A stretch of 64,000 bases of DNA from Thauera sp. K11 (GTDB lineage: Bacteria > Pseudomonadota > Gammaproteobacteria > Burkholderiales > Rhodocyclaceae), in contig NZ_CP023440.1 of assembly GCF_002354895.1 (NCBI RefSeq), forward strand, positions 1-64,000, in the 5' to 3' direction. Shown here piece by piece: positions 36,181 through 41,907 of this stretch. Position 1 is the first letter of the stretch, and every line of letters starts with the position of its first letter. Made by a program: the position numbers and the translations under genes. Under the pieces are notes generated by a model. The model was not told where the DNA came from. It searched no databases and was given only the letters and a program-made list of their open reading frames with translations.

Positions 36181-36275
36181 CTGCTTATAAACAGTATCTT
36201 ATGGGCGCCTCGAAAAACCTCTGCTCCGCCCGCCCTTGGTAAAATGGCTATCCGATTTTCGTGATTGAAACGGGT

Positions 36276-37691
36276 TCATAGCTCACCGTTTTCGATCATG
36301 CGGATCAGTGTTGAAATATCGACGCCGTAGTTCTTTTCCGGCTTTTCCGAATCGGTTGATTTTGGGATATAGGGCTTCGGCTCGGGAGCCGGTTTCGGCA
36401 CCATGCGAGCCAATGATTCCCCTATCTCGAAGTTCTTGAAGTTACCGGGTAGTCCGTACATCATGACCGGCTCCGGTTCCACCTGCCGGCGCTCCTTGCG
36501 CTCGAACTTTGGCCGCGACAGCTTGTGTTTATGAGCGCCCTCGGCGAACAGAATCTTGGCTCGAAGCGCCTCGAACGAGTAACCACGGCCAAGACGATTC
36601 ATGACGCGAATCAGGCTGTTTAGACTCTCGGTGTAGGCGTTCGTAACGGGATGATTGAAGTAATTGAGGATCGGCATTGTCCAGTTACCCCACGCCCGCT
36701 CGATGTCAGCGAAGGCGTCTGCAATCTCGGATGGAATGCTCTTCTGCCACTGGATGAACTTGGCTTGTGCCTCGTCTGGTGACGCGGCATCGTAGATGCC
36801 GAAGAATTGCTCCTTGAGTCGGTAGGCTTCACCAAGCTCCGGGTAGTTCTTCGTCCAGCCGTCAAGGTTCAACCGTTCCTTGTCGTTCAGGTCGCGCTCG
36901 CGCTTGAGCAACACGAAGCGGTCGTGCATCAACCCGCGACGTTGTTTTGGCGTCAAGGACTCGCGCAAGCTCTTTCTGACACGCTCCATCGCATCATTCG
37001 CCATACGGACGACGTGGAACTTGTCCACCACGATCTCGGCCTGCGGAATGACCGCTCGGACAGCATCGCGGTACGGCGTCCACATATCCATGGCGACGTA
37101 CTGGATGCGCTCCTTGCCTTCCAAGTGGTGCAGGAAGTGCACCACGGTATCCTTGTTGCGGTTCGGCAGTAGCTCGACGATGGTGTTGTTCTGGATGTTG
37201 GCGATCACGCCACGCGGCTTGATGAGATGGATTTCATCGATGCCCATCCACTTCGGCGTCTCGAATCGGATCGTCTTTTCCAACTCGTTCACATAGTCGC
37301 TGAACACGGATCGGACGGTGAACTCCGTGCAACCGACCTCTTCTGCGATGCTGGCAAAGGTGCGCTTAATGGCCTGCTTGCCCATCCACTGGGCAAGCCG
37401 CTTGGTCATCAAGCGTTTCTCGTCGATCTCGGGCAGCACCTCATAGAAGGTCTTGCCGCAACCCCGGCACTGATAGCGTCGGGTGTCGATGTATAGACCG
37501 ACCCGCCGCCCGTGCATAGGCAAGTCTTTGACCATTTGCTCCCGGCGACCAAAGCCTACGAGGTTGCTCGACTGGCAGTGCGGGCAGGACGTTGGCGCGT
37601 GCAGCGTTTCAACGTCGATGTGGTAATCATGCTCGTTCTCTTGGATGCTCAATACCTTATAGCAGGGAAGATTGAGGATGTTCGCTGGCAT
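36276..37691 (-). CDS. ISL3-family transposase
   Basis: This 471-residue transposase has an N-terminal zinc finger (CPHCQSSNL ... YQCRGCGKTF, about 37-86), an HTH, and the DDE core (KWMGIDEIHL, YVAMDMWTPYR, then the NHPVTNAYTESLNSLIRV Glu region). The C-terminal tail is Pro/Lys-rich and longer than in the shortest family members. It begins two bases after the stop of the preceding passenger gene, so its translation depends on the operon. This is an unusual arrangement in which cargo expression and transposition share one promoter. Confidence 0.92.
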   Translation of the reverse strand: MPANILNLPCYKVLSIQENEHDYHIDVETLHAPTSCPHCQSSNLVGFGRREQMVKDLPMHGRRVGLYIDTRRYQCRGCGKTFYEVLPEIDEKRLMTKRLAQWMGKQAIKRTFASIAEEVGCTEFTVRSVFSDYVNELEKTIRFETPKWMGIDEIHLIKPRGVIANIQNNTIVELLPNRNKDTVVHFLHHLEGKERIQYVAMDMWTPYRDAVRAVIPQAEIVVDKFHVVRMANDAMERVRKSLRESLTPKQRRGLMHDRFVLLKRERDLNDKERLNLDGWTKNYPELGEAYRLKEQFFGIYDAASPDEAQAKFIQWQKSIPSEIADAFADIERAWGNWTMPILNYFNHPVTNAYTESLNSLIRVMNRLGRGYSFEALRAKILFAEGAHKHKLSRPKFERKERRQVEPEPVMMYGLPGNFKNFEIGESLARMVPKPAPEPKPYIPKSTDSEKPEKNYGVDISTLIRMIENGEL

Positions 37692-37693
37692 GG

Positions 37694-38059
37694 TCAGGCT
37701 TTTCCATCAATCGCTTTGTTGCGATACTCTGCATATCCCAATTGGAAATGCTCTGCCAATGCCTCGCCATATGATCGTCTCGCGTCGGCGACCGCTTCGT
37801 TTTCAGGAATGTTTCGGCGCGCAGCTTCGTAGCCATTGCAATACGCGCCACTTGCGTCGATGAGACGGTCCATCACCTCTGCTACAAGCGGCCCCGGTTC
37901 CAGGCAAACAGCATTTCCGGCTACCTTATCAAGATCGACAGTGACAGAAACGTAACGATCTTCTTCCACGTCACCGAACAATGCCACGTCATCAGGTATG
38001 CCGCTGAGCGCTTCGCGGAGTTCGCCTACTGTCTGACAGGTGGAGTATCGTTTGGTCAT
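37694..38059 (-). CDS. Passenger gene, uncharacterised 121-residue protein
   Basis: This small acidic protein starts MTKRYSTCQTVGELREALSG. Its DDVALFGDVEEDRYVSVTVDLD segment looks like a beta-strand pair, and the C-terminal half is helical (GAYCNGYEAARRNIPENEAVADARRSYGEA split by turns). I do not recognise the family; the composition resembles small phage or plasmid proteins. It lies between the 64-residue gene (two bases apart) and the transposase (two bases apart). Confidence 0.6.
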   Translation of the reverse strand: MTKRYSTCQTVGELREALSGIPDDVALFGDVEEDRYVSVTVDLDKVAGNAVCLEPGPLVAEVMDRLIDASGAYCNGYEAARRNIPENEAVADARRSYGEALAEHFQLGYAEYRNKAIDGKA

Positions 38060-38061
38060 GG

Positions 38062-38256
38062 TTATTCCCAGTGCTGTTGTACAGGCGGTTCAGCCAGCAG
38101 GATGGATGCCGTTGCAGCAACCGAATCGCCTTCCTGATATGCCTGAATCAGTCGCCGCGTGCGCGGACTGATGAAGTCGGCTACCTGAATCTCCGTCCAT
38201 TCCTGTTCTTGCATCAAGTGCGCCTCAACCAGATCGCTGAAATCATCGAAGCTCAC
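38062..38256 (-). CDS. Passenger gene, 64-residue protein
   Basis: This is a very short acidic, helical protein (SFDDFSDLVEAHLMQEQEW, then ADFISPRTRRLIQAYQEGD). Its ATG overlaps the upstream stop as ATGA (38253-38256), the main evidence that it is real. No function can be assigned. Confidence 0.55.
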   Translation of the reverse strand: MSFDDFSDLVEAHLMQEQEWTEIQVADFISPRTRRLIQAYQEGDSVAATASILLAEPPVQQHWE

Positions 38257-38573
38257 GATGTCACCTCACCGTGGCGAATCCACTTGGGCTGAATATTCTT
38301 GATTGCCTCATTCAGCACGCCGTAGGCTCCGCTGGAGTGCGGGGCAAGCAACAGCGCCGCCGTCATCGCCGCAAACATCTCATCCGATACTTCTTGTAGC
38401 CGCTCGATTTCATCGCCGCGCAAATACCATTCACGCTCGAAGCGCTCTGCCTGTTCATTCGCATTAGCGAGGGCTTCCGCAAGCCGTTTGTTCTCCCGCT
38501 CAAGCTCGATCACGCGATCAATTCCATTGCGAGCGATCATCGCCACGTCCTGAATGGTCTGCTCGGTGGTCAT
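38253..38573 (-). CDS. Passenger gene, coiled-coil protein of 106 residues
   Basis: From MTTEQTIQDVAM the protein runs into a clear heptad coil (RVIELERENKRLAEALANAN, EQAERFEREWYLRGDEIERL, about 18-65), then a small hydrophobic segment and a basic tail. Coils of this kind often serve in phage or plasmid assembly or as dimerisation arms. The start at 38573 overlaps the preceding stop by four bases. Confidence 0.55.
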   Translation of the reverse strand: MTTEQTIQDVAMIARNGIDRVIELERENKRLAEALANANEQAERFEREWYLRGDEIERLQEVSDEMFAAMTAALLLAPHSSGAYGVLNEAIKNIQPKWIRHGEVTS

Positions 38574-38914
38574 GCCTTGCCCTCCGTGGCCGCCGTGTAA
38601 CCCCAACCAAGATCACGAAACATCTTCATGCCGCGCTCCGAAACCCGCCAGCCGCGTTTCTTGGCGCGAGGCTCATATTCCTCGACAAAAAACTCCGGCA
38701 CCGGCCCCCAGTGGCCGAGCGGGATCGTGCTGTACTCAGTCTTACCGATCAGTTCATCCGAGAAGAATTCGACCAGCATTTCGCCGCCCTTGCGACTGAC
38801 GATCTTGCCCACACGGCCAGCGTCCAGGTGTTTGCTGTCAGGATGCAAGACCACGAAGCAGCCCGGCTGGAACATCGCTTCTTGCTCTTTTGTCAGTTTG
38901 GCATCAGTCGTCAT
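38570..38914 (-). CDS. Passenger gene, SH3-like/KOW-like small protein
   Basis: This 114-residue protein starts MTTDAKLTKEQEAMFQPG. A block CFVVLHPDSKHLDAGRVGKIVSRKGG followed by EMLVEFFSDEL looks like the small beta-barrel of SH3/KOW-type domains. The C-terminus has RGWRVSERGMKMFRDLGWG, helical and basic. The start overlaps the end of the zinc-ribbon gene by 11 bases. Function is unknown; nucleic-acid or protein binding is plausible. Confidence 0.5.
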   Translation of the reverse strand: MTTDAKLTKEQEAMFQPGCFVVLHPDSKHLDAGRVGKIVSRKGGEMLVEFFSDELIGKTEYSTIPLGHWGPVPEFFVEEYEPRAKKRGWRVSERGMKMFRDLGWGYTAATEGKA

Positions 38915-39164
38915 ATTGACACTCGCATTCACAAGGGCGCCATTCGCAACGCGGGCAGAACCCCATCGCCATGACGGCCTGCTTGAGTTCAAAATGACAT
39001 TCAGGGCTTTCGGGATGGTTCAATACGCTGAATGCCGCGAGCGCCATCCGCTCCACCGACTTGTTTTCGTGTTGCCAACGATCGGCGTTGTTCTTTTCCA
39101 TCAAGCGCAGGCGGTCGATTTCCTTCTGCTGCTCGGCGATGACACGCTCCAATGCTTCACTCAT
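38904..39164 (-). CDS. Passenger gene, coil plus Cys-rich tail
   Basis: This 86-residue protein starts MSEALERVIAEQQKEIDRLR, a coil, and ends CPRCEWRPCECECQYDD. The four or five Cys residues in the tail suggest a zinc or metal site. The start overlaps the DUF551 gene stop by eight bases. The role is unknown. Confidence 0.55.
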   Translation of the reverse strand: MSEALERVIAEQQKEIDRLRLMEKNNADRWQHENKSVERMALAAFSVLNHPESPECHFELKQAVMAMGFCPRCEWRPCECECQYDD

Positions 39165-39723
39165 CGCCGTCTCTCCGCTTGGCCGATCCGTTGGCAATGA
39201 CCCACTGGGCGCAGCGCAGATCATCCGGGTTGTCGGCCATCAAAAATGCCTTAACCGCGCCCGCCTTCTTGCCGTTCACCTCTGGCCGAAACACGGTCAT
39301 GGACGTTTGCGTTCCGGTAGGCAGGGCATCCATGAGTGAGCGCAAGGCATCGGTTGCTTTTTGCTCGGCGGTCAGATCGCCCCAACCAATCAAGGCGCGC
39401 TCGATGCGAGCACGAATATCCTGCGGCAGATCGAGGGAAAGATTCTGGGCGTCAAGGCGCTTGATGTCTGCCAGCAGCGCCAGCAAATCGTCTTGCTGCC
39501 TTGTCGGATGCAGTCCCGCGTCACGAGGGTGCACAGCCCAATGCGTGGCATGCTTGCACACCTCTGGTTGATCCTCGGGGTCGGCATAGAAACACTCGTT
39601 CAATGTTTCCGCCTTCACATCGAATACCTGCTCTCCATTGAAGTCAGAGCCTTCGGTGTAGATCAACACCCGATCATGCTCATCGAGGTTCGGCATCCTG
39701 TCGGTCAACTTGATCCATTGCAT
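39157..39723 (-). CDS. Passenger gene, DUF551-containing protein
   Basis: This 188-residue protein's first 60-70 residues match DUF551, a short domain frequent in phages (MQWIKLTDRMPNLDEHDRVLIYTEG ... HATHWAVHP). The rest is helical and unfamiliar (LLALLADIKRLDAQN, ALRSLMDALPTGTQT). The ATG at 39723 lies two bases after the Fic-like stop. The phage-like domain suggests the cargo was assembled from prophage genes. Confidence 0.65.
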   Translation of the reverse strand: MQWIKLTDRMPNLDEHDRVLIYTEGSDFNGEQVFDVKAETLNECFYADPEDQPEVCKHATHWAVHPRDAGLHPTRQQDDLLALLADIKRLDAQNLSLDLPQDIRARIERALIGWGDLTAEQKATDALRSLMDALPTGTQTSMTVFRPEVNGKKAGAVKAFLMADNPDDLRCAQWVIANGSAKRRDGDE

Positions 39724-39725
39724 GG

Positions 39726-40526
39726 TTACGGCTCCATTCCGCTGTCGTGATCTCGATCCTCTTCTGGTGGAGGAAGAATTGCCTCTGCATCCGGGTGGCA
39801 CCCGGCGAGGAAATCCATCATCTCCGTGGCGTCCTTCGAGAGATAGAAGCGCACCATCTTCTCGTTGAACTCCTGCGCCTTGGCAGCGGGCACGCTGATG
39901 GCGTCGATGCCGTGAGACATGAGGACGCCGTTCATCATGAAGCGCGACGTGCGCTTGTTGCCGTCGAAGAAGAATTGCTGCAACGCGCCGAACAGAAAGA
40001 AAGCCGTTGCACGTTCAAATGGTTCGCACTCTTGCAGTGCTGACACGCCTTCGCTGAACACTCGGTTCAGTTCCGGTGCGCCGGGGAGTGTCGGCAGCGG
40101 TGTATAGCGTCCACGCTCGCCGAGGCCAACATCCGGGGTGTAGTTTGTCTCTTGACCTTCGCCACGAAACAATCCCCATTCCAAGGCTTCCTTGCGAGCG
40201 ACAATGCCGTTCAGTTCGATGAACACGGTCTTGGTGAGGGAAAACTGACCACTCTTGACCATCGACAGCAGGCGCTTGGAGCTTTCCGCGAGGTTCAGAA
40301 TTTGCTCTTGATCTGAAATCTTCCGTCCGCCGATAGTCACACCATCCAGCAGGGTCTTGACCTCGGGGAAGGTGAAGGGATTGCCTTCAAGCACCGAAGC
40401 ATCCCAGACGAACTCGGGCAGCATTTTGTGGAAGCGGAAACAGACCCGCTCAAGCGAGTGAGCCGGAACGGAAGTCGGTACTGCCGATCTGTCCCATCGG
40501 AAACCAAGCGCATCAAAAAGGGGCAT
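39726..40526 (-). CDS. Fic-domain protein with altered catalytic motif
   Basis: This 266-residue Fic-fold protein normally would transfer AMP or another nucleotide phosphate to target hydroxyls. The Fic motif reads QFFFDGNKRTSR (about 184-195), with Gln where the catalytic His normally stands; the Asp-Gly-Asn-x-Arg part is intact. Upstream a SVLEGN segment (44-49) matches the (S/T)xxxE(G/N) inhibitory helix seen in Fic proteins with an N-terminal lock. Loss of His makes AMP transfer unlikely; other Fic-like proteins with changed motifs do other chemistry or act by binding. The start follows GGAG at nine bases; an ATG five codons upstream is possible. It is the first gene of the cargo operon. 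Confidence 0.8.
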   Translation of the reverse strand: MPLFDALGFRWDRSAVPTSVPAHSLERVCFRFHKMLPEFVWDASVLEGNPFTFPEVKTLLDGVTIGGRKISDQEQILNLAESSKRLLSMVKSGQFSLTKTVFIELNGIVARKEALEWGLFRGEGQETNYTPDVGLGERGRYTPLPTLPGAPELNRVFSEGVSALQECEPFERATAFFLFGALQQFFFDGNKRTSRFMMNGVLMSHGIDAISVPAAKAQEFNEKMVRFYLSKDATEMMDFLAGCHPDAEAILPPPEEDRDHDSGMEP

Positions 40527-40561
40527 GTCGCCGCACTCCATCAATCATTGAAAACGGTTTT

Positions 40562-40590
40562 ATGATAGCAATACATAGCAGTCGCGTCAA
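40562..40590 (-). promoter_or_regulatory. Strong promoter of the ISL3 cargo operon
   Basis: On the minus strand TTGACG (40585-40590) and TATCAT (40562-40567) are exactly 17 bases apart, followed by the Fic-like start 36 bases downstream. It lies within 105 bases of the right transposon end and is the only good promoter seen for all eight genes, including the transposase. Confidence 0.65.
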
Positions 40591-40704
40591 TCGCAAAACA
40601 CGGATTGCAGGTGTAATTACATCGAGAGCTTAGGCAGGAAAATCAATCACGGAAAACGGATACCCGGTAAAATTACGACGTCCTGAACCCCGCAGCCTGC
40701 ACCG

Positions 40705-41742
40705 ATGAAATCGCGTAGCGCTATCAAGACTGACCTGTTCGCTGACGAGCATCACCGCAAGAAGATCGACGCGCTGGGCGACCCACTGGCCGACATCGAG
40801 TCGCACATCGACTTTGCGTCGTTGGCGGCCGAGGTGGATGAGGTGGCGCCGCGCCCGGTGAGCGCGCAGGGCGGGCGTCCGCCGTACCCGACCGAGACGA
40901 TGGTGCGGATCCTGGTGCTCAAGCGTCTGTACAACCTGTCCGACGAGCAGATGGAGTACCAGTTGCTCGACCGGATGAGCTACAAGCGCTTCTGCGGACT
41001 GGCGAACGCGACCCACGTCCCGGACCGCACCACGGTGTGGACCTTCGAGAACCGGATCGGTGAAGCTGGGGCGAAGGCTCTGTTCGATGGCGTCTCGGAG
41101 CAGTTGCTCAGGAAGGGTTTCATCGCGCGCGGCGGTCAGATCATCGACGCCACTTTGGTCCCCGCCCCCAAGCAGCACAACAGCCGAGGCGAGAAGGCGC
41201 TGATCGAGCACGGTGCGATGCCCGCCGACTGGAAGCCTGCGAAGCGCCGCCAGAAGGACCTCGACGCGACCTGGACCAAGAAGCACGGCACGAGCCACTT
41301 CGGCTACAAGCTCTCGATCAACGTCGACAAGAAATACAAGATCATTCGCCGAATCGAGACCGACACGGCCAGTACGCACGACAGCCAGCACTTCGACGAC
41401 GTCTTCGATGCGGGCAACACAAGTCGGGACGTCTATGCCGACCGGGGCTACCCGTCCGAGGCGCGTGAAGCCTGGCTCAAAGAGAACGGCTTCCGTAACC
41501 AGATCCAGAGGAAGGGCAAACGCAACAAGCCGCTGACCGAGTGCCAGCAGCGGCGTAACCAGCGCATCGCCAAAACGCGCGCCCGGGTCGAGCATGTCTT
41601 TGCCGCCATCGAGCAGATGGGCGGCAAGTTGCTGCGTACCATCGGCCAGGCGCGGGCGAACTTTGCGATGACGATGATGGCTGCCTGCTACAACTTGAAG
41701 CGGCTGGTCTACTTCCGGAAGGCCGGAATCGAGGCCTTCTGA
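40705..41742 (+). CDS. IS5-family transposase
   Basis: This 345-residue DDE transposase of the IS5 group has an N-terminal DUF772-like dimerisation region (TETMVRILVLKRLYNLSDEQMEYQL) and catalytic Asp/Glu blocks IIDATLVPAP, DVYADRGYPS and RVEHVFAAIEQM. All three acidic residues are present, so it may be active and could act on both element ends even though the ISL3 transposon separates them. Confidence 0.9.
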   Translation: MKSRSAIKTDLFADEHHRKKIDALGDPLADIESHIDFASLAAEVDEVAPRPVSAQGGRPPYPTETMVRILVLKRLYNLSDEQMEYQLLDRMSYKRFCGLANATHVPDRTTVWTFENRIGEAGAKALFDGVSEQLLRKGFIARGGQIIDATLVPAPKQHNSRGEKALIEHGAMPADWKPAKRRQKDLDATWTKKHGTSHFGYKLSINVDKKYKIIRRIETDTASTHDSQHFDDVFDAGNTSRDVYADRGYPSEAREAWLKENGFRNQIQRKGKRNKPLTECQQRRNQRIAKTRARVEHVFAAIEQMGGKLLRTIGQARANFAMTMMAACYNLKRLVYFRKAGIEAF

Positions 41743-41907
41743 CGCCCGAAATGGGCCGAATCGCCGATACCCGGGGCGATTCGAGGCAAAAACGGGGCAA
41801 CGTCGCCGAGAAACGCGGTGGTTTGCCAAAGGAATTGGACCGAATTCGGTCGCGGTCATCATTGCGCGGCGGGATTTACTGAAAACCTCGGGTTATTCGA
41901 GGTGCCC

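Follow-up and report, generated by a model that had tools for sequence, protein, structure and literature searches.

We analyzed a window comprising the first 64 kb (64,000 nucleotides) of a 140,963-bp contig of Thauera sp. K11 (NZ_CP023440.1), one of the two contigs of this genome, and found an ISL3-family unit transposon of 4,420 bp at positions 36246–40665. The unit lies between two copies of GGTAAAAT (36238–36245 and 40666–40673), a perfect 8-bp target-site duplication, and ends in terminal inverted repeats (IRs) that agree at 19 of 22 positions: GGCTATCCGATTTTCGTGATTG on the transposase side (36246–36267, plus strand) and GGGTATCCGTTTTCCGTGATTG on the cargo side (40644–40665, minus strand, read as the complement of that interval). 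An 8-bp target duplication and imperfect IRs starting with GG are hallmarks of the ISL3 family; the element has both, and its empty site was seen as well. All eight genes are co-directional on the minus strand, beginning with a Fic-like gene (266 residues, 39726–40526), followed by g2 (188 residues, 39157–39723, a DUF551 domain and a separate C-terminal segment), g3 (86 residues, 38904–39164, with a Cys-rich C-terminal tail), g4 (114 residues, 38570–38914), g5 (106 residues, 38253–38573, coiled-coil-like by eye), g6 (64 residues, 38062–38256), and g7 (121 residues, 37694–38059, its N-terminus weakly DUF6225-like and below the Pfam family cut-off), and closing with the transposase gene tnpA (471 residues, 36276–37691), whose stop is 30 bp short of the element end. 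From Fic to tnpA the junctions measure +2, −8, −11, −4, −4, +2, and +2 bp (gaps positive, overlaps negative). The Fic start was placed at the ATG used in a copy from Acidovorax (see below); there is also an in-frame TTG at 40544. TnpA matches DDE_Tnp_ISL3 (PF01610, 1.9e-63), Zn_ribbon_ISL3 (PF14690), and HTH_Tnp_ISL3 (PF13542) in Pfam, and scores 290.8 bits against NF033550 (cut-off 180).

When the flanks are joined, they match one uninterrupted stretch of the IS5-like ISAzo41 on a plasmid of Aromatoleum aromaticum; 117 of 133 bases agree, with 4 gaps, and GGTAAAAT occurs once at the junction. Because this match is continuous, we conclude that the ISL3 unit inserted in the left end of an older insertion sequence; the host at about 36203–41907 is an ISAzo41-like IS5-family element (transposase at 40705–41742), split near its left end. 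Two further complete copies were found, one on the Acidovorax temperans plasmid pEP1 (L083, NZ_CP117194.1 8001–12420; 6 mismatches over 4,420 bp, duplication GAGGAAAG) and one in an IMG/VR viral contig (4 mismatches over 4,420 bp, duplication ATCAGCGA), and the seven cargo genes are full-length and open in all three. The empty site with its single GGTAAAAT, together with the same 4,420-bp unit between other duplications elsewhere, argues against a chance arrangement, and three complete copies with differing duplications and intact genes indicate that this copy type is mobile and recently spread. An earlier note on this DNA, made from the sequence alone, had proposed both a discrete mobile unit and a run of eight genes overlapping or 2 bp apart with tnpA last; the duplications, IRs, empty site, and other copies demonstrate the former at the sequence level, and the gene coordinates agree with the latter.

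The frame of related ISL3 elements and their cargo

Among 82 related loci, ends could be set for 33, of which two (L017, L081) were excluded, their ends being spurious or out of register, and two had their ends shifted by 8 bp (L037, L077); with seven added by hand (L007, L010, L012, L013, L018, L020, L073), the set comprised 38 elements. Discounting near-copies (L013, L020, L072, L083), 34 were distinct, 10 of the lineage with a Gln-type Fic protein (the window element included) and 24 of other kinds. The flanking duplication matched at 8/8 bases in 21 of the 38 and at 7/8 in 6, the other 11 matching at fewer bases or not being set in register. Cargo precedes tnpA in every element and occupies at least 500 bp in all 38, with varying genes, so that a transposase-only element with the same ends, which the earlier note had named as a counterexample, was not encountered in this set. 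In 34 of 38 elements 30 bp separate the tnpA stop from the terminus; in two the distance is 28 or 29 bp, and the remaining two have broken transposase genes. The distinct elements measure 1,649–6,250 bp (median 2,932), and in 29 of 34 sense frames cover more of the cargo than antisense frames (median 0.94 vs. 0.72), a contrast that carries little weight in DNA of this kind, where long antisense frames are common. As read from these sequences, the frame is fixed: cargo-side IR, an IR-like box (box 2), promoter, a second such box (box 3), cargo operon, tnpA, 30 bp, and the second IR.

Further loci were added later. Of 15 plasmid loci, four gave no ends (L116, L124, L126, L128) and one a spurious pair (L115); duplications were perfect (8/8) in L119, L120, L121, L123, and L129, and matched at 6, 2, 3, 4, and 5 of 8 bases in L117, L118, L122, L125, and L127, respectively. 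Among six viral loci, L168 gave no ends and L167 a poor pair.

Toxin–antitoxin (TA)-like or restriction genes were identified by Pfam, PADLOC, and mutual similarity in 21 of the 24 distinct elements outside the Gln-type Fic lineage, a raw count. These were nucleotidyltransferases with or without HepT/HEPN (8), DUF6036/AbiEii nucleotidyltransferases (4), VapD-like genes (4), restriction-modification genes (3), a canonical Fic with the motif HPFLDGNGR (1), and DUF2442 (1). Several of these calls are modest. VapD is the name we presume for the Cas2-like cargo of L035 and L077, where the Cas2-like Pfam match falls below the cut-off, and L028 and L037 were assigned by 93–95% identity to L077; the AbiEii match is below the cut-off in L046 and just above it in L051, L067 shows a nucleotidyltransferase only, and the HEPN in L018 is putative. 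Of 12 further plasmid loci with published annotation, 7 carry TA or restriction genes ahead of tnpA in the same array. Pandoraea and Burkholderia multivorans have type ISP restriction enzymes, Pseudomonas putida and Xanthomonas citri have AbiEii, X. citri pv. phaseoli var. fuscans has DUF6036, and Aeromonas and Rhodanobacter have a nucleotidyltransferase with DUF86 (which we take to be HepT-like). The Pandoraea, B. multivorans, and both Xanthomonas loci gave no ends or ends with poor duplications. The Aeromonas caviae element, on an IncP plasmid (L119 2824–7452, NZ_AP024949.1), carries its nucleotidyltransferase/DUF86 pair and five genes ahead of tnpA between perfect copies of GGAATTTC and adjoins qacEdelta1 and sul1. 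The canonical Fic (with a KfrB tail), accompanied by two small genes, belongs to a single 3,275-bp element found with different duplications in two different bacteria (L016 and L072).

Placed on a transposase tree of 36 rows (L059 and L067, whose transposase genes are broken, were left out), the cargo does not follow the transposase: L084 (restriction) and L012/L013 (nucleotidyltransferase) branch within the Fic clade, and MntA-HepT turns up at separate points of the tree. Cargo has therefore been exchanged, and on the evidence of these sequences it is interchangeable. Inside L012 and L013, just upstream of tnpA, is GGGTATCCGGATTTG, an IR type of another ISL3 clade and possibly a fusion scar of two elements. 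A shared linker, GGRATGGARCC, closes the first cargo module in three unrelated families (the Fic lineage; HepT in L042 and L071; AbiEii-like in L046 and L051), where it encodes a C-terminal Gly-Met-Glu-Pro; it occurs 11 times in the sense orientation and never on the opposite strand in the 38 elements, near-copies included (126,479 bp). A ribosome-binding overlap common to these modules or a recombination joint could account for it, though three independent families are few.

Subterminal boxes, promoter and regulation

Two IR-like subterminal repeats lie near the cargo end of the window element, both on the minus strand: box 2 at offset 56 (40588–40609) and box 3 at offset 102 (40542–40563). 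They adjoin a promoter-like site (40590–40562, minus strand) that is the only co-directional one found in the element by consensus scan, with a −35 hexamer TTGACG (40585–40590) and a −10 hexamer TATCAT (40562–40567) separated by a 17-bp spacer. Box 2 closes with the TTG that opens the −35, and box 3 opens with the AT that closes the −10. The scan itself found 2 promoter-like sites in the region as compared to a mean of 1.7 in shuffles; because it does not exceed the shuffle level, we dropped it as main evidence, and support for the promoter comes from its conserved position in relatives. Of 36 distinct left ends, 15 have a site scoring at least 9/12 in frame, as compared to 0–2 when the place is slid by 2–12 bases (a slide by one base is no control, because the score allows it). 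The single promoter at the far end described in the earlier note is thus present as a promoter-like site, at a position retained in many relatives.

The boxes are also common to the lineage. Across all 38 elements, near-copies included, we counted 47 IR-like matches of at least 14/22 near the cargo end in the orientation of the IR and 1 in the opposite orientation, with 1.6 expected per strand from the elements' interiors, and their offsets cluster at 55–57 (16 matches) and 101–103 (19 matches). In the later elements, scored at a threshold of 13/22 (L122, L125, L166, and L171 excluded), at least one box was present at 56 or 102 in 8 of 10, down to a transposase identity of 45.6%: both boxes in L119, L121, L123, and L169 (Aeromonas, Rhodanobacter, Pseudomonas syringae, and one viral contig) and one in L117, L120, L127, and L129 (Burkholderia savannae, P. 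putida, Lactococcus, and Lysinibacillus). L118 and L170 had neither at the predicted place, their best matches being at 112 and 46. Boxes and IRs change in concert. With offsets fixed at 56 and 102, the boxes of 35 distinct elements matched their own IRs at 18.49 of 30 as compared to 15.84 when shuffled, and those of the 23 elements outside the Fic clade at 16.57 as compared to 14.29, with 0 of 2000 shuffles as high in either case; three control offset pairs gave no covariation. These fixed offsets replaced an earlier, biased test in which box places had been chosen by their similarity to the element's own IRs. Concerted change of IRs and boxes is the expected effect of one protein reading both.

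We consider it likely that the window element belongs to a widespread ISL3 lineage in which a fixed frame holds swappable cargo and TnpA autoregulates the cargo and tnpA together. TnpA, with its zinc ribbon and helix-turn-helix, would bind the boxes as it binds the IRs, and in doing so would cover the −35 and the likely start site and shut off the promoter of cargo and tnpA. When TnpA is scarce, as on arrival in a new cell, cargo and transposition would be expressed together; as TnpA accumulates, the two would fall together. The earlier note's claim that transposition is expressed only together with the cargo is likewise a prediction. The cargo, mostly of an addictive or defensive kind (MntA-HepT, AbiEii/DUF6036 nucleotidyltransferases, VapD-like, Fic, restriction-modification), would favor retention of the element or of its replicon. 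In the window copy the lasting cargo, judged from the sequences compared, is a Fic-fold protein without the catalytic His.

Several observations weigh against this reading. At the promoter place, 21 of 36 distinct left ends score below 9/12; ten elements (L022, L030, L032, L042, L046, L048, L051, L056, L059, and L074) depart from the box spacing, and some have boxes at 46 or 112 instead of 56/102. The sample was drawn with six peptide patterns of the window transposase, and no ends could be set for 49 of the 82 loci (many contigs end early), so that it represents resolvable elements. Other cargo occurs in three elements (TetR in L032, small unknowns in L048, YopX in L074), 5 of the 12 annotated plasmid loci have mostly hypothetical proteins and no TA or restriction gene upstream of tnpA, and a Lactococcus plasmid element (L127 1487–5350, NZ_CP042409.1; box at +56, duplication 5/8) carries the mercury genes merR-merA ahead of tnpA. 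The window's own g2–g7 match no family of known function, and its Fic protein is without the catalytic His.

Finally, the boxes could have a role in building the transpososome instead of in repression, as TnpA sites of an asymmetric complex with several sites at one end and one at the other, the promoter position being incidental. Their IR orientation, their restriction to the cargo end, and spacings of about 56 and 46 bp fit this alternative, which we nevertheless think unlikely: in many elements with unrelated cargo the TTG at the close of box 2 opens the −35 and the AT at the start of box 3 completes the −10, and because of this overlap occupied boxes would almost have to block RNA polymerase. 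The two roles are, moreover, compatible.

A broader proposal can be put forward tentatively, namely that ISL3 transposases are repressors of a portable cargo promoter made of copies of their own ends, and that the elements are a platform for exchangeable addiction and defense modules. Cargo and transposition would burst upon cell entry and then be silenced together, and a fixed slot would take up one module in place of another, perhaps via the GGRATGGARCC linker. A transposase that represses its own cargo would, if this is true, link addiction, defense, and mobility in one circuit. In practice the architecture is predictable, as the transposase alone often suffices to locate ends, boxes, and promoter, and the interval from box 3 to tnpA is then the cargo; the frame thus offers a route to new TA, Fic, and restriction modules.

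The Fic-like protein and the six small genes

The first gene had been described in the earlier note as an altered Fic, and this description stands, the protein being Fic-fold by profile with Gln in place of His. It matches phrog_11900 (7.5e-47), scores 22.8 bits against Pfam Fic (below the cut-off of 24), and by profile matches FICD structures (2.1e-24), with its Glu on the IEGN of FICD and its Gln on the His of HPFIDGN; PADLOC, run on this protein only, gave a weak match to PDC-S04 (2.3e-5). Its family is large, with 2,367 homologues at a threshold of E 1e-3 and a match in 53 of the 399 genomes compared within the order, and no ISL3 transposase was found within the 3–4 kb fetched around ten Fic copies (L003, on the window genome's chromosome, and L091–L099). 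The chromosomal copy (2326655–2327410) is a Gln-type Fic gene of 63% identity with no ISL3 neighbor in the stretch seen.

A transposase scan of one-genome-per-species contigs (best 80 of 86 matches kept) yielded 79 loci, and Fic was recognizable in 10 of them: at 85–94% identity and full or nearly full length in nine (L004–L011 and L073) and as a fragment in L062. The nine have transposases 89–93% identical to that of the window, and by DNA comparison always retain Fic and tnpA, with g2–g7 absent, truncated, or replaced. Fic and tnpA lie less than 100 bp apart in L006, L007, and L010; remnants persist in L004 (the g2 start and a g2–g3 piece), L005 (a frame-split g4 and other pieces), L008 (the g4 end and part of g5), and L011 (a g5 scrap); and L009 has a shorter g2 with two different genes and L073 one different gene. 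On Sulfuricystis pSTJ1 (L084), Fic is mostly gone and the slot holds a large Eco57I-type (IIG-like) restriction-methylase.

Such internal deletions and scars in g2–g7, which are frequent, and the mosaic g2 are what one would expect if the cargo were neutral DNA, acquired at random and carried along until deletion removes it. We find this improbable, as Fic, like tnpA, is under purifying selection: across the 10 Fic-lineage elements, the ratio of nonsynonymous to synonymous substitution (dN/dS) has a median of 0.089 in 41 usable Fic pairs and of 0.069 in 45 tnpA pairs. The prevalence of TA-like and restriction genes outside the Fic lineage, taken as the raw count that it is, also argues against random pick-up.

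Class II Fic AMPylases have an inhibitory motif, [ST]xxxE[GN], ahead of the Fic core and a catalytic His in HxFx[DE]GNxR. The window protein resembles FICD and this class in having the inhibitory motif intact (SVLEGN) ahead of a Fic fold, but its core motif, QFFFDGNKR, has Gln for the catalytic His and Lys for Gly. One could therefore ask whether it is a class II AMPylase toxin that is catalytically active but held in check by its own inhibitory motif, to which the FICD-like profile, the inhibitory Glu48 (46 of 46 aligned relatives), and the mostly retained D-G-N-x-R would be suited; we doubt this strongly, since Gln occupies the position of the catalytic His in 45 of the 46 aligned relatives and in 116 of the 120 homologues listed, of which 119 keep LEGN. 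Given its low dN/dS, the Fic-like protein is a maintained one, and it is probably something other than a standard AMPylase.

The six small genes are present in some members of the lineage and missing from others, and sequence matches place relatives of some of these genes in phage or plasmid accessory regions. In the 399 genomes of the order, g7 matched in 2 (the window genome and one weak partial match) and g4 in 3, the third a 27-residue scrap. We found 57 homologues of g4, which had been called KOW-like in the earlier note; no domain model matched it at E 0.01. It occurs on Sulfuricystis pSTJ1 among accessory genes, away from the ISL3 element, and in eight IMG/VR viral contigs whose fetched stretches contain no ISL3 gene, adjoining a 73% g3 relative in one (L174) and a 60% g5 relative in another (L175, with primase- and methylase-like genes by eye). 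Its head is fused to a transposase tail in P0177 and its tail to another protein in P0176, read by eye as ImmA/IrrE with no Pfam match. For g2, the DUF551 assignment holds (residues 2–62, 26.4 bits against Pfam DUF551, curated cut-off 22), and it differs from DUF551 proteins by an extra C-terminal half that is found separately in other proteins; among its 106 homologues the two halves occur apart from each other, and in P0228 the tail is fused to a cation-efflux protein. In L038 a g6 relative (62%) directly precedes an ISL3 transposase of 62% identity. No named PHROGs function was assigned to g2–g7, and no TA family matched them in Pfam, PHROGs, and further family models. Phage GenBank records were rejected as their source, as they gave no match, though the IMG/VR viral contigs gave g4.

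These results speak to the central suggestion of the earlier note, that the seven cargo genes are a conserved system, which is not supported, given the nine relatives in which only Fic and tnpA are constant and the rarity of g7 and g4. The finding of cargo genes singly in unrelated places, which that note held would count against its suggestion, was made in part: g4 stands away from the ISL3 element on pSTJ1 and in pairs, g3–g4 and g4–g5, in viral contigs. That the seven genes form one undescribed multi-protein system carried as a set is, for the same reasons and given the mosaic g2, very improbable indeed, notwithstanding the tight gene overlaps, the three complete copies within 4–6 mismatches at unrelated sites, and a g4 cluster that represents 488 contigs in the protein database.

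Known systems and neighboring observations

Passenger genes in ISL3 elements and TA genes in Tn3-family elements are already known. Christie-Oleza and colleagues reportedly described ISPpu12 and its isoforms as ISL3 elements with passenger genes in 2010. In PMC4133298, ISPpu12a is an ISL3 element with tnpR, lipoprotein signal peptidase, and metal antiporter genes; like the window element, it joins an ISL3 transposase to extra genes, and, on a comparison of gene content only, it differs in its cargo and in its separate tnpR regulator. TA genes can sit within the transposition module of Tn3-family transposons, and it has been proposed that their expression goes together with that of the transposase (Lima-Mendez et al. 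2020, PMC7157771). In that paper, the TA genes lie mostly at the res site beside the resolvase and include one HEPN-Mnt case; six Tn3-family transposons are treated in PMC7371123. The likeness lies in the placement of TA genes in the transposition module, whereas the window element is ISL3, with its promoter between IR-like repeats and tnpA last, and ISL3 cargo also includes restriction systems and Fic. No resolvase model matched the eight element proteins, and the sole transposase is of the ISL3 family, so the element does not qualify as Tn3-type. ISL3 elements thus offer a resolvase-free case for the question raised by TA genes in Tn3 transposition modules (PMC7157771). In full-text literature searches no title or abstract opening described the arrangement, which is weak evidence of novelty because most subscription journals and ISfinder lie outside their coverage.

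Two further observations concern the surroundings of these elements. The Acidovorax copy adjoins type II CRISPR genes: it is flanked on one side by cas9 and Tn3 transposase genes and on the other by a short 390-bp cas1 coding sequence and cas2, and the ISL3 insertion looks to have interrupted or truncated cas1. The chromosome of the window genome also bears a partial ISL3 transposase (47%) at 2012112–2013023.

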